From Desulfobacterales bacterium (GTDB lineage Bacteria > Desulfobacterota > Desulfobacteria > Desulfobacterales > Desulfosalsimonadaceae): a stretch of 34,138 bases of DNA. The DNA lies in assembly GCA_025453995.1 (NCBI GenBank), contig JALOPH010000018.1, positions 1 to 34,138 of the forward strand, read 5' to 3'. The notes below the pieces were generated by a model. The model did no database searches, was not told where the DNA came from, and saw only the letters and a program-made list of their open reading frames with translations. A program made the translations under genes and the position numbers. Positions 22,675 to 33,249 of this stretch are shown here, in pieces; the stretch's first letter is position 1, and every line of letters begins with the position of its first letter.

Positions 22675-23583
22675 TCACCTCCCGGCTGCTGATCCATCTG
22701 TCTCATCGGGTTTTTCCGGCATATTTAATTTTATAAACTTCCCGGATTCAAGTTCCGCGTATATCATCCGCTTTTGGAGCAGCTGCCCGCGGTTTAAGAG
22801 AATTTTCAATATCTCCATGACCTGCAGTGATCCGATAATCGAAGGAGTCACCGCGGGTACGCCGAGAAGGGATTCAGCGCCGGCGCCTGATGACTCGCTG
22901 CCGCCGCCATATATCATATCAAGGCTCCTGTCTCCGGGGCAAACGGTCATCACCTGCCCGTCAAATCCCGCCACGGTCCCGTGCACCAGCGGGATATTGC
23001 ATTTCTCAGCCTCTGCCTGCAACAGCAGGCGGTTCGGCATATTGTCGAGGGCGTCTGCGATGACATCCGCGCCTGCAAACAAATCGGGCGCATTTTGATG
23101 AGTAAATGCATCGACAACTGCAATGACTTCAACCGACGGATTGACGGATTCCAATTCCTTCTTTGCAGCTTCTGCTTTAGGCATGTTGATCGTACGGTCA
23201 AAAGCGAAAGCCTGGCGATTCAGATTGGTCTCATCGAATTTGTCAGGGTCCACAATCACCAGAGAACCAATGCCCATCCGAGCAAGAAGAAGAATGATCT
23301 GTCCGCCCAATCCGCCGGCGCCGATGACCGCGACACGGGAGCGGGCCAGTTTAAGCTGGTCCTCAATGTTTACGGATTGGGTGTTACGAATGTATCGATG
23401 AGGCCAGATGCCGAGCAGAAGGGCTTCGATATATATTTCTCTCAAATGAAGCTGATACTCCTCGGCCAGTGTTTGTGCGGGGTTTTCCTTTAAGACGCTG
23501 GTTTCCCTGCCGGACGAATCTCTCAGCAATCGGCAAGCCGAAGAAATTCGGGAATGGATTTCAACACGAAGGTCCGGTCTCAT
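22675..23583 (-). CDS. ThiF/MoeB/HesA-family ubiquitin-like-protein activating enzyme (E1-like)
   Basis: E1-like enzymes adenylate the C-terminal Gly-Gly of MoaD or ThiS so that sulfur can be loaded for molybdopterin/tungstopterin or thiazole synthesis. The 302-residue protein has the ATP-binding GAGGLGG (88-94), the DETNLNRQ segment (Asp and Arg contact ATP), the conserved Lys136 and the ADALDNMPNR loop. The paired CxxC zinc motifs of MoeB are absent. An N-terminal helical extension of about 70 residues precedes the fold. The frame is open to an ATG at 23628, but AAAGGAGG lies between the two and fits the ATG at 23583. It is divergent from a moaD-like gene 73 bp away, a natural protein partner. 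Confidence 0.87.
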   Translation of the reverse strand: MRPDLRVEIHSRISSACRLLRDSSGRETSVLKENPAQTLAEEYQLHLREIYIEALLLGIWPHRYIRNTQSVNIEDQLKLARSRVAVIGAGGLGGQIILLLARMGIGSLVIVDPDKFDETNLNRQAFAFDRTINMPKAEAAKKELESVNPSVEVIAVVDAFTHQNAPDLFAGADVIADALDNMPNRLLLQAEAEKCNIPLVHGTVAGFDGQVMTVCPGDRSLDMIYGGGSESSGAGAESLLGVPAVTPSIIGSLQVMEILKILLNRGQLLQKRMIYAELESGKFIKLNMPEKPDETDGSAAGR

Positions 23584-23590
23584 TTTTTTC

Positions 23591-23619
23591 TTTTCATCCT
23601 CCTTTGTGAAGGATATAAT
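23591..23619 (+). promoter_or_regulatory. Candidate promoter for the MoaD-like gene
   Basis: A perfect TATAAT at 23614-23619 with TTTTCA at 23591-23596, exactly 17 bases apart, points towards the MoaD-like gene. A transcript starting here would begin near 23626, which supports the ATG at 23657 over the upstream in-frame ATG at 23606. Confidence 0.5.
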
Positions 23620-23656
23620 CCGTGTCAAATCAGAGGATTCAACCGGGATGTATGCA

Positions 23657-23896
23657 ATGAAAATCGAAATTCATCTTTTTGCCAGCCTGGCTAAATATCT
23701 GCCTGCAGGGAGTTTGGATAAAACAGTTGTGATGGAGATCAGTCATGGGACTTCCATCATGGACGTCATCAGCCGGATTGAAATCCCGCGGGAGGATGTC
23801 AAACTTATTTTTTTAAACGGTATTCATGCCAGGGATGCCGAAACGCTCAAAGACGGCGACCGCTTGGGTCTTTTCCCGCCCATCGGCGGCGGATAG
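23657..23896 (+). CDS. moaD: MoaD/ThiS-family sulfur carrier protein
   Basis: This 79-residue beta-grasp protein begins MKIEIHLFASLAKYLP, typical of MoaD, and ends LFPPIGGG, giving the C-terminal di-glycine that is adenylated and thiocarboxylated by a MoeB-like enzyme. MoaD supplies sulfur to the dithiolene of molybdopterin or tungstopterin. It is the only plus-strand gene in the right 18 kb. It diverges from the ThiF/MoeB-like gene and converges on the AOR-associated gene, so its links are to tungsten/molybdenum cofactor supply for the AOR. An upstream ATG (23606) would overlap the promoter and adds residues foreign to the family. ThiS cannot be excluded, but no thiazole genes are nearby. 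Confidence 0.87.
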   Translation: MKIEIHLFASLAKYLPAGSLDKTVVMEISHGTSIMDVISRIEIPREDVKLIFLNGIHARDAETLKDGDRLGLFPPIGGG

Positions 23897-23900
23897 CCTG

Positions 23901-24485
23901 TCAGATTGATTCAACGGTCAGAAATGCTTCATCTGAAAAAATATCCGTTTCCAAAAATTCCTGAAAGGAATATTTTTTGCCTTCCACCTCAATCAAGGCG
24001 CGCATATTTTCAAATTTTTCCCGGTTGTGTTTGAAAAACTCGGACAATGTGCCGCCCTTGACGCGGACGCCTTTTTTGAGAAATAAAGGCCCCAGATCAG
24101 CCGCCGCCTGATTGAAAAGCTTCAATAAAACGGTTCCCTCACCGGCAATGCCCTTGAAATGCTTTGAGGCGGACGCGATATTGGACCGAAAAGACGCATA
24201 GACGCCGCCTCTTCTGAAAACAGCGCCCGCAAGCCCCGGCATGGCGCCTGAAAGCGCCACAACTGAACCATCCGTCAGCTCAGCGCCATCAATATCATCA
24301 AGCGCTTTTCCGTTGAGAAAAATCGTCTGGATTTTTTGATCCAGATAGTCGGGATCAATCTCCAGTCCGGCGCATAAAAAATCCCTGAGAGTCACACCGG
24401 TCGGTGTTTTCACATGAACGCCTGTCGACAGAAGTTCAAAGAATACACCGATCCGGCCTGATTCAACACTTACGGCAACCTTCAT
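23901..24485 (-). CDS. AOR-associated protein with an N-terminal beta-grasp (ubiquitin-like) domain
   Basis: I do not recognise a named family for this 194-residue protein. Its N-terminal half reads like a MoaD/ThiS fold: TLRDFL, then IQTIFLNGKALDDID, ELTDGSVVALSGAMPGLAG, parallel to KLIFLNGIHARDAETLKDGDRLGLF in the adjacent MoaD-like protein. Instead of ending in Gly-Gly it continues through AVFRRGG into a second half with TLSEFF...ALIEVEGKKYSFQEFLETD, which may be a second, degenerate copy of the same fold. There is no signal peptide or cysteine cluster. It starts 6 bp after the AOR gene, so the two are surely co-transcribed. A role in cofactor delivery to, or folding of, the AOR is inferred from position and fold only. 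Confidence 0.75.
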   Translation of the reverse strand: MKVAVSVESGRIGVFFELLSTGVHVKTPTGVTLRDFLCAGLEIDPDYLDQKIQTIFLNGKALDDIDGAELTDGSVVALSGAMPGLAGAVFRRGGVYASFRSNIASASKHFKGIAGEGTVLLKLFNQAAADLGPLFLKKGVRVKGGTLSEFFKHNREKFENMRALIEVEGKKYSFQEFLETDIFSDEAFLTVESI

Positions 24486-24491
24486 TTGAAA

Positions 24492-26228
24492 TCAGAAATT
24501 ATACACTTTGTCCAATTCTTCGTCGGTCACCTCAAAGACAACATTATGGGGAGGGAATATTTCTTTTTTGAAATAATCGGGCAGCCGGTCGTCTTTTTGG
24601 GTAAAACCGGCCCGCTGGTTGAAATCCCTTTCCATCCTTAAAATCTTTTTGCCGAGTTCGGCCACATCATCGCCGGTCATATTCAAGCCATAAAAAGCAT
24701 TGATCATGTCCACCAGGGCGTTAAATGTTTCAGGCTGGTCCAATATGGCAAAGGCGATAAACAGACACATGCCGGTGGAATCAATGGCGGCAGTGGCAAT
24801 CTGAAGGTTTCGGGAAAGCTCGATCTGGCCTTCGGGTTTCAAGGGATTCACCGTACCGCCGACGCCAAGGATATTGGCAGTCACCGCATACCCTGCGGTA
24901 TGGTCAGCGCCCTGGGTAGTGGTGGCGTAGGTCACGCCGATGCCCTGGACCGCGCGGGGGTCATAAGCCGGCATGGCCTGATTTTTAACCACCGGCACGC
25001 GCTCCACGCCGAACACTTTCCCGGTTATTCCGGCGCCGCTTCCCAAAATGCGCCCCAGGGGCGAGCCTTTTCCAACCTCTTTCACAAGGTTGATTGCAGC
25101 GGCAGCATCTCCGAATTTAGCCAGGCCTGCTTCCATGGCAACCCCGATCGTAGCGCCCATTTCAATGGTGTCCAATCCATAATCATCATCCAGCCGATCC
25201 ATCATGGCAATAGCGTCGAGATCATCTATGCCGCAATTCCCGCCGTGGGACCAGACGGTTTCATATTCCGGCTGTTTGGTCAAATACTGCCCGTCTTTAT
25301 CCATATATATTCCGGAACAGCGGATGACACATCCCCGGTGGCATCCGTGCGTGGGATCTCCGCCCCTTGCTTTTTCGGTTTCTGCCAGCGCTTCGCCGCT
25401 GATCCGGGAGGCTCCTGGAAAACGTCCTTCCTTAAAATTATAGGTCGGGAAACCACCGGCTTCATTGAGCACATTGGTCAATACATTGGTGCCATAGGCC
25501 GGAAGGCCCTGGCCTGTGACCGGATGCTTGCGCAACCCTTCAACAAAAATCTTATTGGCCGCCTTGAATTTTTCCGGGTCTTTGGGCGATCGCATTTTCA
25601 TTCCCGAATCATCCAAAATAATGGCCTTGACCCCTTTTGATCCCATGACCGCGCCAACACCACCCCGGCCGGCATGACGCGTGGGACGGAGTTCCACATC
25701 CGTAAACGCGATGGACGCGGCACCCAGCTTCATCTCACCGGCCTGGCCGATGGTGACATAGGTGGCTTTTTCGCCATATTGCTTTTTAAGCTGATCGACC
25801 GTGTCATAATTGCCCTTCATCTTAAGGCTGTTGTCGACGTCAATCTGGATCCCGTCTTTATTGATGAAGATTTTATAGAGATCTTCGGTCTTTGGTTTTC
25901 CTTCAAGGACAATCGCCGCATATCCCATGCGGGCCAACACCTGGGCGCCCTGGCCGCCGGCATTGGCTTCCTTGATGCCGCCGGTGAGCGGGCTCTTGCA
26001 CCCAACAGATATACGGCCGGACATGGAAGCAGCCGAACCGCTGAGCAAACCCGGGGCAATGACCAGCTTGTTGTCTTCACTCAGGGGATGGCATGTGGGA
26101 GGCACTTCCGCTGCGACAATGGCCGATGTCAATGCCCGGCCGCCCAAGCCGGCATATTTTCCAATTTCTTCTATGACAAATGACGGAGCGCCCTGAGGCC
26201 CCATCTTGATGCGAAGGATTTTATCCAT
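24492..26228 (-). CDS. Aldehyde:ferredoxin oxidoreductase family protein (tungsto/molybdopterin enzyme)
   Basis: AOR enzymes oxidise aldehydes to acids, or reduce acids or aromatic acyl groups, with ferredoxin using a bis-pterin tungsten or molybdenum centre and a 4Fe-4S cluster. The 578-residue protein has GKYAGLGGRALTS and APGLLSGSAASMSGR, the pterin-binding GGIKEANAGGQGA, RHAGRGGVGAVMGSKGVKAI, the cluster cysteines 296, 300 and 304 in HGCHRGCVIRCS, and a late Cys in STGMCLF. The cysteine spacing is CX3CX3C rather than the CX2CX3C of Pyrococcus AOR. GGAGG lies six bases before the ATG. The substrate cannot be read off; the neighbouring cyclase and keto-acid enzymes suggest an organic acid or aldehyde of a catabolic route. 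Confidence 0.93.
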   Translation of the reverse strand: MDKILRIKMGPQGAPSFVIEEIGKYAGLGGRALTSAIVAAEVPPTCHPLSEDNKLVIAPGLLSGSAASMSGRISVGCKSPLTGGIKEANAGGQGAQVLARMGYAAIVLEGKPKTEDLYKIFINKDGIQIDVDNSLKMKGNYDTVDQLKKQYGEKATYVTIGQAGEMKLGAASIAFTDVELRPTRHAGRGGVGAVMGSKGVKAIILDDSGMKMRSPKDPEKFKAANKIFVEGLRKHPVTGQGLPAYGTNVLTNVLNEAGGFPTYNFKEGRFPGASRISGEALAETEKARGGDPTHGCHRGCVIRCSGIYMDKDGQYLTKQPEYETVWSHGGNCGIDDLDAIAMMDRLDDDYGLDTIEMGATIGVAMEAGLAKFGDAAAAINLVKEVGKGSPLGRILGSGAGITGKVFGVERVPVVKNQAMPAYDPRAVQGIGVTYATTTQGADHTAGYAVTANILGVGGTVNPLKPEGQIELSRNLQIATAAIDSTGMCLFIAFAILDQPETFNALVDMINAFYGLNMTGDDVAELGKKILRMERDFNQRAGFTQKDDRLPDYFKKEIFPPHNVVFEVTDEELDKVYNF

Positions 26229-26479: not shown

Positions 26480-27403
26480 CTACATACTGACTTTATCTCT
26501 GCCTTTGAGCTTTAATATTTTCCTTGTTTCATCCGGGGTATAGGGCTCATAGCCGAATTCTCTGGCAATGCGGACCATCTTTTCCACCAGGGCCGCGTTG
26601 GACGTGGCCATCTCGCCGGGAGACAGCCACAGATTGTCTTCAAGCCCCACCCGTGCAGCGCCGCCCAGAAACAAAGAAGTTGTTGCCAGCGGCAGTTCAT
26701 GACGGCCAGCGCCGATGGTGGAAAACATGAAATTGTCTCCGAACAATTCAACTCCGGTCTGCTTCATGTGCACCAGGTGGGGAATTGTTGATGCGATCCC
26801 GCCGAGAATCCCGGTGACGAACTGAACGTAAAAAGGATTTTCAATCTCTCCCCGGCTGTAAAAATAATGAGCATTGTGAAGATGGCCGATGTCATAAGCT
26901 TCAAACTCCGGTTTGGTGCCGCTCTCCTTGAAGGTCTTCATGATCCGCTCAAGATCTGCAAATGTGTTTCGGAAAATAAAATCCTTGGACATCCCCAGAT
27001 ACTGTGCCTCCCAGTCGTATTTCCATTCCTTGATTTTTTCGAGGACCGGGAACAGAGCAAAATTCATTGATCCAAGGTTACAGGACGCAAGCTCAGGTTT
27101 AAACAGAGGAACGGCAGCTATGCGTTCATCCACTGTCATGTTCATGCCGCCGCCGGTGGTGATGCAGATCACCACATCGCATTTGGCATGGATGGTGGAT
27201 ACAATTTCGCCCATGATGTCCGTGTTGCCCGTGGGCATGCCGTTTTGCGGATCCCGGGCGTGCACGTGAACCGTGGACGCGCCCGAATGAGCCGCTTCAA
27301 TGGCCTGGGCGGCGATATCCCGGGGTTTAACCGGCAAATAGGGCGCCATGGTAGGCGTATGAATGGCGCCGGTGACCGCGCAGTTTAAAATGAATTTTGG
27401 CAT
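26480..27403 (-). CDS. Beta-keto acid cleavage enzyme (BKACE, DUF849)
   Basis: BKACE enzymes condense a beta-keto acid with acetyl-CoA and cleave it to acetoacetate plus a new acyl-CoA (3-keto-5-aminohexanoate in the founding member). The 307-residue TIM barrel has NCAVTGAIHTPTMAPYLP at its N-terminus, the zinc ligands in TVHVHARDP, ITTGGGMNMT, the EAYDIGH segment with the third ligand and VGLEDNLWLSPGE near the end. The frame is open 26 codons further upstream, but GAGGAGG lies just before the ATG at 27403, and the family begins with MPKFILN-like sequence, so that start is chosen. The cyclase gene ends 74 bp upstream. Pairing with AACS further on would allow acetoacetate to be recycled. Confidence 0.92.
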   Translation of the reverse strand: MPKFILNCAVTGAIHTPTMAPYLPVKPRDIAAQAIEAAHSGASTVHVHARDPQNGMPTGNTDIMGEIVSTIHAKCDVVICITTGGGMNMTVDERIAAVPLFKPELASCNLGSMNFALFPVLEKIKEWKYDWEAQYLGMSKDFIFRNTFADLERIMKTFKESGTKPEFEAYDIGHLHNAHYFYSRGEIENPFYVQFVTGILGGIASTIPHLVHMKQTGVELFGDNFMFSTIGAGRHELPLATTSLFLGGAARVGLEDNLWLSPGEMATSNAALVEKMVRIAREFGYEPYTPDETRKILKLKGRDKVSM

Positions 27404-27477
27404 AAGACCTCCTCTCAACAGGCCAGAATCCCAATCCCGATACGCCGGCCAAGCAAGTATACCGGCCCTCGTTTCCT

Positions 27478-28257
27478 TCAATCTTCAATAATGGCAACCG
27501 GCCTGGTCCATCCGGCGGAAGCGGACTTTATTTTTATCGGGAAACAGGCCACCTTAAAACCAAACGGCTTTGGAATCATGCCAAGATTTACCATCTTCTC
27601 CATATGGCAGTATCCTTTTTCAATTCCGGCGAAATGGGCCTCCCATATCACCGATGGGTCACCGGTCTTCTGGAATTCCAACGCCAGATACGGCAAAGGA
27701 CGATCCCATGACCATGCGTCAATCCCGACAACTTTGACGCCCCTTTCCAGCAGATACAATGTTGATTCCCGCGTCATTCCGCAGCCCTTGAAAATATACT
27801 CCGGCTTCCCCCAAAAAACGTCCGCGCCCGTTCGGACCAGGACAATATCTAACGGTTTTAACTCATAGCCAATGTCTGACAGTCTGCCTGAAACATCCGC
27901 GGCGGTGATGCCCTCCCCGTCGCCTTTATGGCTGAAATCGAGCACCACCCCATCCTGAAAACACCAATCCAGGGGGATCTGGTCGATGGTCAGGGCCGGG
28001 AAATCTCTGTCCATAAAAGGGTGATAATGGAAAGGCGCATCCAGATGGGTTCCGGAATGGGTGGTCAACTGCACGAACTCTATCGCCCAGCCAAGGGATT
28101 TTGGAAGTTGTTCTTTTTTTAATCCCGGAAAAAATTGTTCCATTTGCTCAGCGCCCTGGGCATGGGTGAGGTAATCAATCTTGGGGATCATCATTTCAGG
28201 ATCGCTTGGCAGACCTGCTTCTATGGCAATGGATAGGTCGATTATGCGTCGGTTCAT
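27478..28257 (-). CDS. Cyclase / kynurenine formamidase-like metal-dependent hydrolase
   Basis: This 259-residue protein of the cyclase (KynB-like) family shows the metal-binding signature THSGTHLDAPFHY, with IDLSIAIEAG at the start and GVKVVGIDAWSWDRP, a typical active-site strand, in the second half. Family members hydrolyse N-formyl or cyclic amide/lactone bonds (kynurenine formamidase, isatin hydrolase) or form rings. AAGGAG is seven bases before the ATG. It precedes the BKACE gene on the same strand; a ring-opening hydrolase followed by a beta-keto acid cleaving enzyme would be a logical pair for degrading a cyclic keto compound, which is inference. The protein is somewhat longer than kynurenine formamidase (about 210 residues). 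Confidence 0.87.
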   Translation of the reverse strand: MNRRIIDLSIAIEAGLPSDPEMMIPKIDYLTHAQGAEQMEQFFPGLKKEQLPKSLGWAIEFVQLTTHSGTHLDAPFHYHPFMDRDFPALTIDQIPLDWCFQDGVVLDFSHKGDGEGITAADVSGRLSDIGYELKPLDIVLVRTGADVFWGKPEYIFKGCGMTRESTLYLLERGVKVVGIDAWSWDRPLPYLALEFQKTGDPSVIWEAHFAGIEKGYCHMEKMVNLGMIPKPFGFKVACFPIKIKSASAGWTRPVAIIED

Positions 28258-28392: not shown

Positions 28393-29196
28393 TTATTCCC
28401 CCCTAAAGTCCGGCTTGCGCTTTTCAAACATGGCAGACAATGCTTCCATATGATCATTTGTGCTGTGGCAAAACGCCTGGTAGGAAGCGGATTGCTCCAG
28501 AAGCTGGCGCAGGGTCAGGCTCTGACCCATGTACAGAAGGCGCTTGGCCATCCTCAACGCCTGAGCGGGTTGGGAGGCGATTTTTTCAGCCAGCGCCTGA
28601 GCGCGTTGCATCAACGCTTCATGGGGAACCATGTCATTCACCAGGCCGATATTCAATGCGGTTTTAGCATCAATGACCTCTGCGGTAAATGTAAGCTCAC
28701 AGGCTCTGGCCATGCCCACAGTCCGTGGCAGAAAATACGCGCCGCCGTCACCGGGAATCAGGCCCACTGCAAGAAACGTTTCACCGAATTTTGCCTTATC
28801 AGAGGCGATCCGCATATCGCACATCAATGCCAAATCGCATCCGGCGCCAATGGCCGGGCCGTTAACCGCGGCAATGGTCGGGACTTCGACTTCATGGACC
28901 GCCAGTGGTATCCGCTGGATGTTTTTCCGGTAATTTTCCATGACCTGGGCCGGCGTGCCGGCAAACATGCCTTTTTTGTCCGCCATGTCTTTGATATTGC
29001 CGCCAGCTGAAAACGAGGGATCTTTGGCGGTGATGATCATCACTTTGATCGTCATGTCCGCATTGACGATCCGGCAGACATCTTCAATCTCGCCAATGAT
29101 CCGGCTTCCGGTAATGGCATTGCGGATATCCGTTCGGTTTAAGGTCAATGTGGCAATACCGCCTGAAATGTCAAAAATGATATCCTGATAGGTCAT
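28393..29196 (-). CDS. Crotonase-superfamily protein (enoyl-CoA hydratase/isomerase-like)
   Basis: This 267-residue protein has the crotonase fold with the first oxyanion segment FSAGGNIKDM (62-71) and the second NGPAIGAGCDLALMCDMRIAS (112-132). In a gapless alignment to rat enoyl-CoA hydratase the two catalytic glutamates (Glu144, Glu164) correspond to Asp121 and Phe141. Only the Asp of GLIPGDGG (Asp150) lies near the position used by isomerase-type members such as PaaG. It is therefore doubtful as a classical hydratase and may be an isomerase, hydrolase or a hydratase with different chemistry. AAGGAG precedes the ATG by five bases. Position after carboxyltransferase, HMG-CoA lyase-like and AACS genes suggests a methylglutaconyl-CoA-hydratase-like step. 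Confidence 0.88.
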   Translation of the reverse strand: MTYQDIIFDISGGIATLTLNRTDIRNAITGSRIIGEIEDVCRIVNADMTIKVMIITAKDPSFSAGGNIKDMADKKGMFAGTPAQVMENYRKNIQRIPLAVHEVEVPTIAAVNGPAIGAGCDLALMCDMRIASDKAKFGETFLAVGLIPGDGGAYFLPRTVGMARACELTFTAEVIDAKTALNIGLVNDMVPHEALMQRAQALAEKIASQPAQALRMAKRLLYMGQSLTLRQLLEQSASYQAFCHSTNDHMEALSAMFEKRKPDFRGE

Positions 29197-29279: not shown

Positions 29280-30026
29280 TTAAGGGTTTATGAAAAACCG
29301 CCACGCGCAGAACCAATCCTCCGGGTGGACATCCGGCGGGCAGCCGATGCACTCTGTCTGGATGCGGTCATCAATGGCCCTGGCAAAATATGCATACTCC
29401 ACCAGCCCGGCGGACTTGCAAGGGTAATCCGCCATTCCTTTTCGTTTTCTGGCAGACTGTACCCGGCAGTCGTTCATTTTGAAAACAAAGCTGTCCGGAC
29501 TTTCGTATTCTATGGATTGCTGATTGATATTTGCGTAAAGCCGGTATGCGAGCGCCTTTTTAAGACCGTCAAGTCCGGGATGCCGGGGCATACCCAGAAA
29601 ATTTTTGATGGACCAGGCTTCCACAGGTGAAAACTGGGCCCACACCGAATCATTGCAACGCTTGGCCTCATTCATGCCATGCGCAAATTCCACGGCCTGA
29701 AACCAGACCCCGTCATTGCCCAGCCAGTTGACGGAAAGGCTTTCAACAAGATCATTTAGGGATTTATCCGGCAGGTTCATCAGGGGTTCAGGAAGCCCGT
29801 CTTTCATTTCAAAGCCAAGGGTTTTGGACAGGCGGTTCAGTTGAAGATTCAAACTTTTCTCCGAGGCAGTTGTCAACATCTCAAGGGCTTTATCCAGGCC
29901 CATCTGGTGACGGATTTCCGTAAACCAGAGAACATAATGAATCATCTGCCGGTGAAAAAGATTTAGCGCATATTTGACGCGATCTTCTATGGATAAATTT
30001 TTAAATATGCTGGAATTATCGGTCAT
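29280..30026 (-). CDS. DUF6125-family protein with conserved cysteines
   Basis: This 248-residue soluble protein has no characterised function. It has a helical N-terminal two-thirds (SIEDRVKYALNLFHRQMIHY, KALEMLTTASEKSLNLQL) and a cysteine-rich C-terminal part: NDCRVQSARKRKGM, YPCKSAGLVEY and TECIGCPPDVHPEDWFCAWRF, giving five cysteines that could bind a metal or cluster. This pattern is that of DUF6125 proteins, related to the aminothiazoline-carboxylate hydrolase-like group, which are common near acyl-CoA catabolism genes in deltaproteobacteria. The ribosome-binding site is weak (AAAGG). It sits between the AACS and crotonase genes on the same strand and probably serves the same pathway; it may be an accessory hydrolase or sensor. 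Confidence 0.75.
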   Translation of the reverse strand: MTDNSSIFKNLSIEDRVKYALNLFHRQMIHYVLWFTEIRHQMGLDKALEMLTTASEKSLNLQLNRLSKTLGFEMKDGLPEPLMNLPDKSLNDLVESLSVNWLGNDGVWFQAVEFAHGMNEAKRCNDSVWAQFSPVEAWSIKNFLGMPRHPGLDGLKKALAYRLYANINQQSIEYESPDSFVFKMNDCRVQSARKRKGMADYPCKSAGLVEYAYFARAIDDRIQTECIGCPPDVHPEDWFCAWRFFINP

Positions 30027-30089: not shown

Positions 30090-32045
30090 TTAATCCGTCT
30101 GGAGTTCCGCGATGCCTGCATAATAATCCAAAGCTTCCGGATTCTTTAAGGCGTCTTTATTCAACACCGGTATGTTCTGAATGACTTTTTTCACTGCCAG
30201 TTCGACTTTTTTCATGTTCAATGTATAGGGAATTTCAGGAACAGCGATGATTTTTGCCGGAACGTGGCGCGGAGAGGCATTGGCCCGGATGTTTTGCCGT
30301 ATCTTCTGCTTGAGCTGTTCTGTCAATTCAAATCCCTGCGCCATCTGTACAAACAAAATAACCCGGACATCATTTTTCCAATCCTGACCGATCACGATGC
30401 TGTCGGCTATTTCTTCCATCTGCTCCACCTGGCGGTAGATTTCCGCTGTGCCGATGCGCACGCCGCCAGGGTTGAGGGTGGCGTCCGAACGTCCATAAAT
30501 TTTCACGCCGCCATGATCATTGATTTCAATATAATCGCCGTGCCGCCAGATATTGGGATAGACATCAAAATAGGCGCTGTGGTACTTCTTCCCGTCCGGA
30601 TCATTCCAGAAATATATGGGCATGGATGGAAACGGCGCAGTGCAGACAAGTTCGCCCTGCCGGCCTATGACCGGCTGGCCGTTTTCATCATAAGCTTCCA
30701 CTTTCATGCCCAGCCCCCGGCACTGAAGCTCACCCATGTAAACTCTTGCGGTTGGGTTTCCCAATGCAAAACATCCGTTTAAATCCGTGCCGCCGGAAAT
30801 CGAAGCCAGCTGGATATCCGGCTTTATAGCGTCATAAACAAACTCAAATCCCTCTTCAGACAACGGTGATCCGGTGGATAGCAGCGCCCTCAAAGCGCTT
30901 AAATCATATTTTTCTTTGGGAATCAGGCCGGTGTTTCTCAATGCCGCAATATAGCCGGCGCTGGTGCCGAAAACGGTGATTTTCTCATCCTGGGCCATCT
31001 GCCATAGCGCGCCTTCATCCGGGTGAAAAGGGTTGCCGTCATAAAGCACCAGGGTTGCGCCCACAGCCAAAGAGCTCGTGAGCCAGTTCCACATCATCCA
31101 CCCGCAGGTGGTGAAATAAAAAATCACATCCTCCCGCTTTAAATCCGTATGAAGAATCAGTTCCTTTAAATGATTGACCAATATGCCGGAAGCGCTCTGA
31201 ACCATGCACTTGGGCAGCCCGGTGGTTCCGGATGAATACATAACATAAAGGGGATGATCCGCGGGAAGCTGTGCAAAATCGACGTCAAGTCCGGACTGGG
31301 CGGACTTGAATTCATCAAACAGAACAGCCCTGGGTATGGACGAAATATCCGGATTTGAATTGGCGTAGGGAACCACCACCAGTTTTTCAACCGATGGAAG
31401 CTGGGAGACAATGCCCGAAATCCGCTCCAGAGAATCCATGGGCTTCCCCTTGAAAAGATATCCGTCAGCGGTGAACAGAACGCGCGGCTCGATCTGACCG
31501 AACCGATCCATGACCCCCTTGATGCCGAAATCCGGGGAGCAGGAAGACCAGGTGGCGCCCATGCTGACAGCGGCCAGCATGGCGATAATGGCCTGGGGCA
31601 TGTTGGGCATGAACCCGACGATTCTTTCACCAGGCTTGATTCCCAAGGCTTTTAGCGATGCAGCCACTCTGGCAACTTCATCATACAGCTGCCTGTATGT
31701 CATACGGACGGACGGTCTGCTCTCGCCTTTGAAAATCAGCGCCGTATGATCATCCCGGTATCTCAACAGGTTTTCGGCAAAATTAAGACGGGCCCCTTCA
31801 AACCATTTGGCGCCGGGCATTTTATCAGTGTTGTCAACAATCCGGTCATAAGAACGGGAATATTTGATTTCAGCAAAGTCCCACAGGACAGCCCAGAAAT
31901 CTGGAATGTTATCAACAGACCATTGGTAAAGCTTACGGTAATCTTTAATATCCAAATGATACTTGTGGTTTATGGCCTGCATAAACCGTTGCATATTGGA
32001 CTGTTTGATCCGATCTTCTGATGGTTCCCAGAGTATTTTGGACAT
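30090..32045 (-). CDS. aacS: Acetoacetyl-CoA synthetase
   Basis: This enzyme activates acetoacetate to acetoacetyl-CoA with ATP. The 651-residue AMP-forming synthetase has the family's N-terminal segment (RLNFAENLL), the ATP loop YSSGTTGLPKCMVQ, FYFTTCGWMMWNWL typical of AACS, STGSPLSEEGF, SGGTDLNGCF, WRHGDYIEI, the hinge YGRSDATLNPGGVRIG and the C-terminal PYTLNMKKVELAVKK carrying the catalytic lysine. The ATG at 32045 with AAGGAG six bases upstream is preferred over an upstream in-frame start that would overlap the lyase gene. It follows the HMG-CoA lyase-like gene by 25 bp, which fits: the lyase product acetoacetate would be its substrate. BKACE further along also yields acetoacetate. Confidence 0.93.
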   Translation of the reverse strand: MSKILWEPSEDRIKQSNMQRFMQAINHKYHLDIKDYRKLYQWSVDNIPDFWAVLWDFAEIKYSRSYDRIVDNTDKMPGAKWFEGARLNFAENLLRYRDDHTALIFKGESRPSVRMTYRQLYDEVARVAASLKALGIKPGERIVGFMPNMPQAIIAMLAAVSMGATWSSCSPDFGIKGVMDRFGQIEPRVLFTADGYLFKGKPMDSLERISGIVSQLPSVEKLVVVPYANSNPDISSIPRAVLFDEFKSAQSGLDVDFAQLPADHPLYVMYSSGTTGLPKCMVQSASGILVNHLKELILHTDLKREDVIFYFTTCGWMMWNWLTSSLAVGATLVLYDGNPFHPDEGALWQMAQDEKITVFGTSAGYIAALRNTGLIPKEKYDLSALRALLSTGSPLSEEGFEFVYDAIKPDIQLASISGGTDLNGCFALGNPTARVYMGELQCRGLGMKVEAYDENGQPVIGRQGELVCTAPFPSMPIYFWNDPDGKKYHSAYFDVYPNIWRHGDYIEINDHGGVKIYGRSDATLNPGGVRIGTAEIYRQVEQMEEIADSIVIGQDWKNDVRVILFVQMAQGFELTEQLKQKIRQNIRANASPRHVPAKIIAVPEIPYTLNMKKVELAVKKVIQNIPVLNKDALKNPEALDYYAGIAELQTD

Positions 32046-32070: not shown

Positions 32071-33249
32071 CTAAGCTCTGTAAAGTTCAGTAACGCTCTC
32101 CGGCAATTGTCCATTTAACAGCATAAATGAGCGGCAGGGCATGGCCGGTCGATTAATTTTTTTCTGTCGGGCGGCAAAAGTATCCACCACCTCTGCTCGA
32201 AAGTCGCGCCCAAGGGCCAGCAGCCTCTCTTGATCGATTCCGGTATCCACCCCGATCTCATGAAACATTGTCACCATGTCCTCGGTGGAAATCAGACCAT
32301 GGTTAAAATGATCGCTGTAATAATCGCCCTCGCGTCCCTCAATGGCAACTCCGTCAACCATGTTGGCCGGCTGCCCGCCGATTCCCGACAGACAGGATTC
32401 AAACCGAATAATTCCGGCCTTAAGAGCGGCTGCTGAATTCCTGAGGGCCGAGGCCATGTTCTTGGTGTGGAAATGCGCAATGTAAAGCTTGGGATCGGAA
32501 TAATCGCGGCCGTCCGGCCCAGTGCCCATCTCTTTGGGATCAAGCACACGACTAAAAAATTCGTAGGCTTTGTGATAATCAGTAACCGAGCCGTCATGAT
32601 CGGCGAGTTCGATATCATCGGCACCGCAATCCAGGTAGCGTTTTACAAAGGCAATGGCAAAGTTGAGCTTTTCCGTCATGCTGTATTGCTTATTGAATTT
32701 TTCAAAAGGACTCCCCCATATGGTGCTGACGGTGCCATTAACCACCATTCCCCGGCTATGGGCGGCTTTTATAACCTGTTCGGTCATGGCGAAATACTGA
32801 TCATGGGTCTTGCCCGAGTTGGCTTTCTGGTGTTCCGGACAAGTTGAGGTCATTTGAAGTATGCGGTCCGGGCCGTGCCCTTCATCAAAGTCTTTAAAGG
32901 CGCGCTCCGCGCCTCTTTCATGGATGGAAACCGCTGTAAGCTCAACATCGCCGCCGTTGCGTTTCATCATTTCGCCGATGGTTTTGCCGTTTGGTGCCTT
33001 GGTTTTGCTGCTCAGCAGTCGCTTTATTACTTCCGTGGCATCGGGGAAAAAAGGCACAAATTTCGGATGACCGTAGTTGGTAACTTCCAAACGCTTAAAT
33101 CCTGCTATGATCAGGCCTTCCAGATATTTGACTTTCGTGTTTGTATCAATGATGGTTTCCAGAGATTGCAAGCCGTCTCTGATGGTAATATCGCTGAGTT
33201 CGACTTTTTTCCCTGCAAGTTGCTTTTTGGAAATATAAAAATCTGACAT
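32071..33249 (-). CDS. HMG-CoA lyase-like DRE-TIM metallolyase lacking the signature cysteine
   Basis: HMG-CoA lyase splits 3-hydroxy-3-methylglutaryl-CoA into acetyl-CoA and acetoacetate. This 392-residue barrel has the entry motif IRDGLQ (Arg24, Asp25), VNGTVSTIWGSPFE, DIELADHDG and the metal ligands HFH (259-261). The signature loop reads SGIGGQP (288-294): Gln293 stands where the catalytic Cys of GLGGCP is found in known lyases, although Cys286 lies nearby. It is also about 90 residues longer than usual (near 300), with an insertion around residues 85-150 and an extended C-terminus. It may therefore be a related condensing or cleaving enzyme. AAGGAG precedes the ATG. Neighbours AACS and a carboxyltransferase support an acetoacetate-forming role. 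Confidence 0.85.
   Translation of the reverse strand: MSDFYISKKQLAGKKVELSDITIRDGLQSLETIIDTNTKVKYLEGLIIAGFKRLEVTNYGHPKFVPFFPDATEVIKRLLSSKTKAPNGKTIGEMMKRNGGDVELTAVSIHERGAERAFKDFDEGHGPDRILQMTSTCPEHQKANSGKTHDQYFAMTEQVIKAAHSRGMVVNGTVSTIWGSPFEKFNKQYSMTEKLNFAIAFVKRYLDCGADDIELADHDGSVTDYHKAYEFFSRVLDPKEMGTGPDGRDYSDPKLYIAHFHTKNMASALRNSAAALKAGIIRFESCLSGIGGQPANMVDGVAIEGREGDYYSDHFNHGLISTEDMVTMFHEIGVDTGIDQERLLALGRDFRAEVVDTFAARQKKINRPAMPCRSFMLLNGQLPESVTELYRA

Follow-up and report, generated by a model that had tools for sequence, protein, structure and literature searches.

A glutamine-type clade of HMG-CoA lyase-like proteins and its place in isovalerate/leucine-type operons of Desulfobacterota

The window analysed here, a stretch of 34,138 nucleotides from a Desulfobacterales bacterium, encodes a 392-residue relative of 3-hydroxy-3-methylglutaryl-CoA (HMG-CoA) lyase that carries glutamine in place of the catalytic cysteine, Cys266 of the human enzyme. 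Proteins with this exchange form a clade and are not an oddity, and the gene belongs to an operon of the isovalerate/leucine type. We consider it probable that in Desulfobacterota this protein cleaves HMG-CoA during the anaerobic oxidation of isovalerate and leucine, and that it does so without Cys266. The operon, an isovalerate-only pattern of protein formation, the lack of a canonical lyase over the family cut-off in 12 near-complete genomes, a displaced gene and the residue pattern all point to this cleavage reaction. Below, Gln-type and Cys-type denote proteins with Gln or Cys at position 266, and alignment positions follow the human enzyme.

Results

The window protein lies outside the canonical HMG-CoA lyase family

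The protein matches the Pfam HMGL-like family PF00682 with 71.3 bits (gathering score 29), and its TIM barrel with the RDG and HxH motifs (Foldseek, VIA-align 2) places it in the DRE-TIM metallolyase superfamily. Against the canonical HMG-CoA lyase model (NF004283 / PRK05692, curated cut-off 246 bits) it scores 114.9 bits, and it falls far below the cut-offs of the isopropylmalate and homocitrate synthase models (NF002088, 21.6 bits versus 697; TIGR02090, 18.8 versus 484.75). Its best sequence match among solved structures is 6nds (phmmer, 4.3e-17). Structures were compared using an AlphaFold2 model with a mean pLDDT of 72.6, in which the active-site loop is not confidently modelled (pLDDT below 50 for residues 287-301 and 303-319). 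The nearest solved folds are HMG-CoA lyases, at Z 26-27 for the enzymes of human (2cw6/3mp5), B. subtilis (1ydo) and A. baumannii (6nds) (27.1 for 6nds, 26.9 for 1ydo and 26.6 for 2cw6; VIA-align 2) and Z 25.7-27.1 for HMG-CoA lyase folds overall, whereas 2-isopropylmalate, homocitrate and citramalate synthases, which share the superfamily fold, reach Z 21.1 or less (LiCMS, 20.8-21.1). A preliminary description had called the product HMG-CoA lyase-like, and these matches bear it out, that to NF004283 being below its cut-off.

Table 1. Features of the Gln-type protein and of its operon within the window (residue numbers are those of the 392-residue protein unless the human equivalent is given)
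Feature	Coordinates	Strand	Basis or remark
Methylcrotonyl-CoA carboxylase-like carboxyltransferase, C-terminal half, cut by contig end	33338..34138	(-)	PF01039
Gln-type HMG-CoA-lyase-like protein	32071..33249	(-)	392 aa, ATG start, open frame
R24-D25-G26 (Arg41-Asp42), entry motif and metal ligand	33172..33180	(-)	97-99% conserved in 117 clade members
D217-H218-D219	32593..32601	(-)	Asp204 kept; Thr205 to His and position 206 to Asp, clade-specific
H259-F260-H261 (metal ligands His233, His235)	32467..32475	(-)	alignment
GIGGQP, residues 289-294, Gln293 at the Cys266 position	32368..32385	(-)	185-sequence alignment
Extended lid loop, residues 295-318, with N296, Y310, Y311, D313	32296..32367	(-)	alignment
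Leu319, replacing metal ligand Asn275	32293..32295	(-)	alignment
Acetoacetate-CoA ligase	30090..32045	(-)	NF002937 967.3 bits, TIGR01217 929.5 bits, both over cut-off
DUF6125 protein, recurrent in operon	29280..30026	(-)	PF19620
Second crotonase-family protein, recurrent at operon's end	28393..29196	(-)	NF006699 376.1 bits, over cut-off

In human HMG-CoA lyase, Arg41, Glu72, Tyr167 and Cys266 are critical residues and the metal is held by Asp42, Asn275, His233 and His235, Asn275 being critical as well (excerpt of PMC6941031). The window protein keeps the RDG entry motif and reads GIGGQP where the signature loop is GLGGCP, both as described earlier. That all metal ligands are retained, which had also been claimed, is true of Asp42, His233 and His235, three of the four positions, and not of Asn275, which is leucine. 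Arg41 and Glu72 are kept; Tyr167 is Thr, at a position that also varies among Cys-type sequences. By the family score, the missing Cys266 and the missing ligand, the protein should not be filed as a canonical HMG-CoA lyase.

The approximately 90 extra residues noted before are real, since the protein is 72-97 residues longer than the matched solved lyase chains (295-320 residues). They make up several insertions rather than a single long one. The lengthened lid loop after the glutamine is the one insertion common to nearly the whole clade; of those around residues 83-93, 184-190, 238-248 and 351-361, the 17 more distant relatives in the alignment have shorter versions or none.

Gln-type proteins form a clade with a residue pattern of its own

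Of 185 different HMGL-like sequences in the alignment, 125 have Gln, 59 Cys and one Trp at position 266; 125:59 is no natural ratio, because the Gln-type and Cys-type sequences were drawn from different searches, with near species counted apart. Glutamine is thus found in 125 of the 126 clade members and cysteine in all 59 canonical relatives. The single Trp (L240, genome G113) occurs together with Leu275 and His205. In a tree of 113 rows, built by a quick method with SH-aLRT as the sole support measure, 53 Gln rows and the Trp row split from all 59 Cys rows with a support of 95. The proposal of a distinct DRE-TIM metallolyase subgroup therefore withstood the phylogeny, as a single clade with its own motif and lid loop. 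Since 125 of 126 members carry Gln and the window gene shows dN/dS values of 0.026-0.073 against nine orthologues, the glutamine is neither chance nor a sequencing error.

The 117 sequences of the main clade share with HMG-CoA lyase the residues Arg41, Asp42, Gln45, Glu72, Asn138, Asp204, His233, His235 and Glu279 (97-100% kept), and both histidines are invariant (1.00) in these, in five sequences that we call X-type and in the 59 Cys-type sequences. The main clade departs from HMG-CoA lyase in Cys266 to Gln, Asn275 to Leu, Thr205 to His and a lid loop about 17 residues longer; Ser75 to Asn is a further Gln-type change. Position 275 is Leu in 117 and Asn in eight of the 125 Gln-type sequences, and Asn in all 59 Cys-type ones. 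Glu201, His205, Asp206, Gln266 and Leu275 occur together in 117 of 125, while the remaining eight, made up of the five of the X-type and three outliers, combine Asn275 with Thr205, so the change from Cys to Gln is probably the older one. Loss of Asn275 is accompanied by the new His-Asp pair at 205-206, which may replace the metal ligand or serve as acid/base. The stretch between positions 266 and 279 has 28-29 residues in 120 of 125 Gln-type sequences and 18 in the other five; in all 59 of the Cys-type it has 10-12. The X-type lyases (L242-L246) have Gln at position 266 like the main clade, and the same hydratase adjoins L244-L246; they differ in keeping Asn275 and Thr205 and in a shorter lid of 18 residues, and those of G077 and G240 reach the NF004283 cut-off, unlike the window protein.

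Cys286 had been named as the residue whose action as catalytic cysteine would overturn the earlier assignment. Its column holds Cys in 18 and Thr in 93 of the 125 members, which argues against a clade-wide role; in the window protein's own subgroup Cys286 is kept in 14 of 14. The commonest cysteine column is position 171 (92 of 125), where the window protein has Asn; Asn171 and Cys286 go together in 16 sequences, and 17 of the 125 have Cys at neither position. No single cysteine can therefore serve the whole clade, and subgroups may have a substitute of their own, Cys286 in that of the window protein.

The clade is widespread. Matches at E <= 1e-60 were found in 40 genomes of a set of 60 relatives that includes the window's own, and 80 of 297 genomes of the phylum gave a match at E <= 1e-25, 70 of them at E <= 1e-60. 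Relatives of 83-92% identity are encoded at 16 GTDB-contig loci, all from metagenome-assembled genomes entitled Desulfobacteraceae, Desulfobacterales, Desulfamplus, Desulfobacula, Desulfosudis, Deltaproteobacteria or Proteobacteria. Plasmid records yielded 249 matches, all below 60% identity; the 25 listed have 26-31% and, where annotated, are called hydroxymethylglutaryl-CoA lyase. Among the open-licence papers listed, titles and opening parts of abstracts disclosed no HMG-CoA lyase without the cysteine. A deep HMGL-like group (L226, L229, L231, L234) keeps the cysteine and has Glu in place of the metal ligand Asp42; its genes are convergent to neighbouring Gln-type genes.

The gene is part of an isovalerate/leucine-type operon

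Operons of the liu / yng type for isovalerate and leucine contain genes for an acyl-CoA dehydrogenase, a methylcrotonyl-CoA carboxylase (MCC) carboxyltransferase, a methylglutaconyl-CoA hydratase, the lyase and acetoacetate-CoA ligase. All five gene classes are present here, with predicted substrate specificities. The carboxyltransferase is cut by the contig end, and its N-terminal half (residues 1-266) lies at the end of contig C24 of the same genome, with a regulator-like gene, an acyl-CoA dehydrogenase and a hydratase upstream. Read across C24 and C6, the order is dehydrogenase, hydratase, carboxyltransferase, Gln-type gene, acetoacetate-CoA ligase, DUF6125 protein and crotonase; many relatives have the same order, some with an added XRE-cupin regulator. 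As listed, the ligase frame starts at 32114 and overlaps the lyase gene by 44 bases; the true start is probably the internal Met at 32045, which matches the starts of homologues. The window's DUF6125 protein has a C-terminus with cysteines (EC[IV]GCPPD.HPE.W.CAWRF) in common with those of L066, L030 and L054.

To class the hydratase and the carboxyltransferase we used the proteins encoded at L066, where a 92% orthologue of the window protein is found and the carboxyltransferase shares 86% and 79% identity with the two halves in the window genome. This carboxyltransferase is closest to 9tps (440 bits), named propionyl-CoA carboxylase, followed by the MCC beta subunits 8j4z (429) and 3u9r (422) and by AccD1 (4q0g, 416); the next chain named propionyl-CoA carboxylase, 1vrg, reaches 188 bits. 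By sequence it falls in the MCC beta/AccD1 group. The hydratase scores 359.3 bits against NF005802, just below the cut-off of 363, and the human methylglutaconyl-CoA hydratase 1hzd (231 bits) ranks fifth behind other hydratases. No biotin carboxylase gene lies beside the operon, and among the genome's contigs PF02785 matches occur on C158 and C113 only; a biotin carboxylase subunit is presumably shared with the MCC-like carboxyltransferase. The C158 match accompanies another carboxyltransferase, and that on C113 lies in a 1235-aa frame also matching PF00682.

We surveyed genes within 6 kb at the 72 Gln-type loci flanked by 4.5 kb or more on each side. A hydratase was found at 54, an MCC-like carboxyltransferase at 38, the ligase at 20 and a Cys-type lyase at 13, and none of the four at nine. 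These counts are lower bounds, because longest-frame gene calling can hide genes behind antisense frames, as with the dehydrogenase of L038.

Many genomes with the operon have no canonical lyase over the family cut-off

Canonical lyases were sought in 46 relatives, 38 of which have a Gln-type gene; a genome counts as lacking one if nothing in it exceeds the NF004283 cut-off, and the assemblies are often not complete. Fourteen of the 38 have such a match and 24 have none, two of the latter probably having a canonical lyase all the same (G037, with a fragment, and G039, with a 238-bit match). The other 22 include 12 genomes, that of the window among them, with a completeness of 90% or more and a contamination of 5% or less; in all 12 the carboxyltransferase gene adjoins the Gln-type gene. 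Within 6 kb of the canonical genes L184-L188, L190-L192 and L195, which have long flanks and come from other relatives, we found no operon gene, only AMP ligases in three cases. Two genomes with a canonical gene and no Gln-type gene (G013, G021) likewise show no operon gene on the short contigs concerned.

Some close orthologues stand alone (L072, L073, L074, L076 and L077; L078 adjoins a divergent dehydrogenase). Among the 13 genomes of L068-L080, 11 nevertheless have an MCC-like carboxyltransferase of 72-80% identity, one has a 38% match and one has none. In G355, G357, G359 and G360 the carboxyltransferase is followed directly by the XRE-cupin regulator and a solitary Gln-type gene lies elsewhere; in G355 and G357 the ligase, too, is not beside the operon. 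Three of these four have no canonical lyase over the cut-off, and G359 has one (378 bits). G361 has an operon without the Gln-type gene; its dehydrogenase fragments at two contig ends overlap (residues 1-276 and 256-382), so the gene is probably divergent just upstream of the operon. A second Gln-type gene of G356 lies within its operon.

The isovalerate cluster of Desulfococcus multivorans contains a Gln-type gene

D. multivorans DSM 2059 has one chromosome of 4,455,399 bp with an isovalerate cluster, including a transcriptional regulator, at 3.20 Mbp, and cells adapted to 3-methylbutanoate were the only ones to form the cluster's proteins HmgL, Mcc, EchA2 and AcsA6 (excerpt of PMC5109826). 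In G045, which we take as this strain, TetR-like, dehydrogenase, hydratase, carboxyltransferase, Gln-type lyase, XRE-cupin and ligase genes lie at 3.206-3.216 Mb, the Gln-type gene at 3.210 Mb. From this position we infer that HmgL is the Gln-type protein; it would then share clade (40% identity over aligned positions) and operon with the window protein, on another branch of the clade. HmgL was published as a lyase by name, and the missing cysteine goes unremarked in the excerpt of PMC5109826. Two canonical lyase genes of D. multivorans (397 and 281 bits) lie far from the cluster, at 0.12 and 1.31 Mb, and the Gln-type protein of this strain therefore need not be the HMG-CoA lyase.

Some genomes pair a canonical lyase with a Gln-type gene

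A trio of Cys-type lyase, hydratase and Gln-type genes recurs in ten genomes (G064, G163, G135, G190, G101, G234, G294, G255, G261, G146), one of which has a 90% orthologue of the window protein, and the X-type genomes G077 and G240 have the same arrangement. All ten Cys-type genes exceed the NF004283 cut-off. At E <= 1e-60, nine of the ten genomes gave no MCC-like carboxyltransferase, and G135 has a 38% identity match. In eight of the ten a dehydrogenase lies beside the trio or the contig ends there. The Cys-type partners of the twelve trios form, with the lyases of G122 and G174, one subclade (support 90). Carboxyltransferase and Cys-type lyase occur together at four loci (L142, L143, L149, L151). 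The trios of L140 and L245, and by gene sizes also of L150 and L246, are divergent to apparent ABC transporter genes and an AMP ligase, and these four span three different Gln subgroups.

Discussion

The favoured reading gives each operon product a step. Isovaleryl-CoA would be oxidised, carboxylated and hydrated to HMG-CoA, which the Gln-type enzyme would cleave to acetyl-CoA and acetoacetate, the latter being converted to acetoacetyl-CoA by the adjacent ligase. Arg24 and a metal held by Asp25, His259 and His261 would polarise the substrate as in the canonical enzyme, with His218 taking the place of Asn275 as fourth ligand or acting as general acid/base. In the canonical lyase Cys266 transfers a proton under the closed lid; this job might pass to Gln293 acting with the longer lid, through Tyr310 and Tyr311, or to a water that they hold. 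The recurrent trios, the critical standing given to Cys266 and Asn275, and the canonical lyases in D. multivorans and G359 speak against this reading, as do the candidate substitute cysteines at positions 171 and 286, an operon lacking its own biotin carboxylase gene and the low model confidence of the active-site loop.

If both lyases of a trio cleaved HMG-CoA, their repeated pairing would be hard to explain. The two should differ in task, and the Gln-type protein there may have another substrate. Extended to the whole clade, this would make it an enzyme that cleaves or forms a different 3-hydroxy-3-methylacyl-CoA, for example 3-hydroxyisovaleryl-CoA to acetone and acetyl-CoA, bypassing carboxylation. 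The trio genomes, with hydratase and both lyases and no close MCC-like carboxyltransferase, would suit it, as would the single subclade of their canonical partners; the exchanges Ser75 to Asn and Thr205 to His and the longer lid may alter the acyl pocket, and an 'HMGL-like' protein is induced on acetone in acetone-degrading sulfate reducers (excerpt of PMC8084838). We nevertheless regard it as unlikely, since the carboxyltransferase at 38 and the ligase at 20 of 72 loci fit HMG-CoA and acetoacetate, and near-complete genomes with the carboxyltransferase show no other lyase over the family cut-off. The earlier suggestion of another acyl-CoA substrate or a condensing role accordingly loses ground for the window genome, whose operon predicts HMG-CoA cleavage with acetoacetate passing to the ligase; another substrate is conceivable in genomes that lack a close carboxyltransferase and have a canonical lyase in the same cluster. 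We would give slender odds to a second kind of lyase that cleaves both HMG-CoA and 3-hydroxyisovaleryl-CoA, the latter to acetone and acetyl-CoA, with a catalytic apparatus of its own (Gln293, His218/Asp219 and the tyrosine-rich lid). An acetone route for the trios is a guess; if true, their genomes would break down isovaleryl-CoA free of ATP and carboxylation, and the reverse direction would activate acetone. L062 (G051) was considered as an acetone locus and dropped, as the first residues of its 701-aa and 132-aa neighbours do not resemble those of B12 mutase subunits.

A condensing enzyme of the isopropylmalate/homocitrate synthase kind would share the superfamily fold, and GIGGQPAN can be aligned by eye with what we take to be the GxGERxGN motif of such enzymes; with HMG-CoA lyases as the nearest sequences and folds (the Z range given above), a catabolic operon, isovalerate-specific formation and separate PF00682 genes in the same genome whose products (531 and 576 aa) match isopropylmalate-type synthases in length, we find it very improbable. 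We give no more credit to a relative that is non-catalytic or regulatory and binds to the canonical lyase: the losses of Cys266 and Asn275 and the recurrent pairing in trios would suit it, but Arg41, Asp42, Glu72, Asn138, Asp204, His233, His235 and Glu279 are kept, dN/dS is as low as given above, and many genomes show no canonical lyase to bind. A transcarboxylase, with the CoA carboxyltransferase and the 392-residue protein as counterparts of 12S and 5S subunits, had come to mind through a 'TSQPS' motif, presumably that of pyruvate carboxylase; it was rejected, 5S and pyruvate carboxylases giving Z 17.7-18.9 against 25.7-27.1 for the lyases.

Should HMG-CoA cleavage by the Gln-type protein be true, the reaction would not need Cys266, and His205/Asp206 with the longer lid would be candidates for its replacement. 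A widespread clade without Cys266, and mostly without a metal ligand, yet at home in the isovalerate operon of sulfate reducers, would then account for one step by which leucine and isovalerate are oxidised anaerobically in sediments, and would put a name to the missing enzyme in genomes that score 'no HMG-CoA lyase'.

Genes downstream of the operon

Two genes downstream of the isovalerate operon, at 26480-28257 of the window, share 4 bases: one for a cyclase-family hydrolase and one for a beta-keto acid cleavage enzyme, which at 420 bits narrowly misses the cut-off of 430 for the 3,5-dioxohexanoate cleavage equivalog. The stretch 22675-26228 holds genes for an aldehyde ferredoxin oxidoreductase-like protein, a small protein without Pfam match and a ThiF-family protein; L056 has similar genes after its operon, and L054 has only the oxidoreductase gene there.
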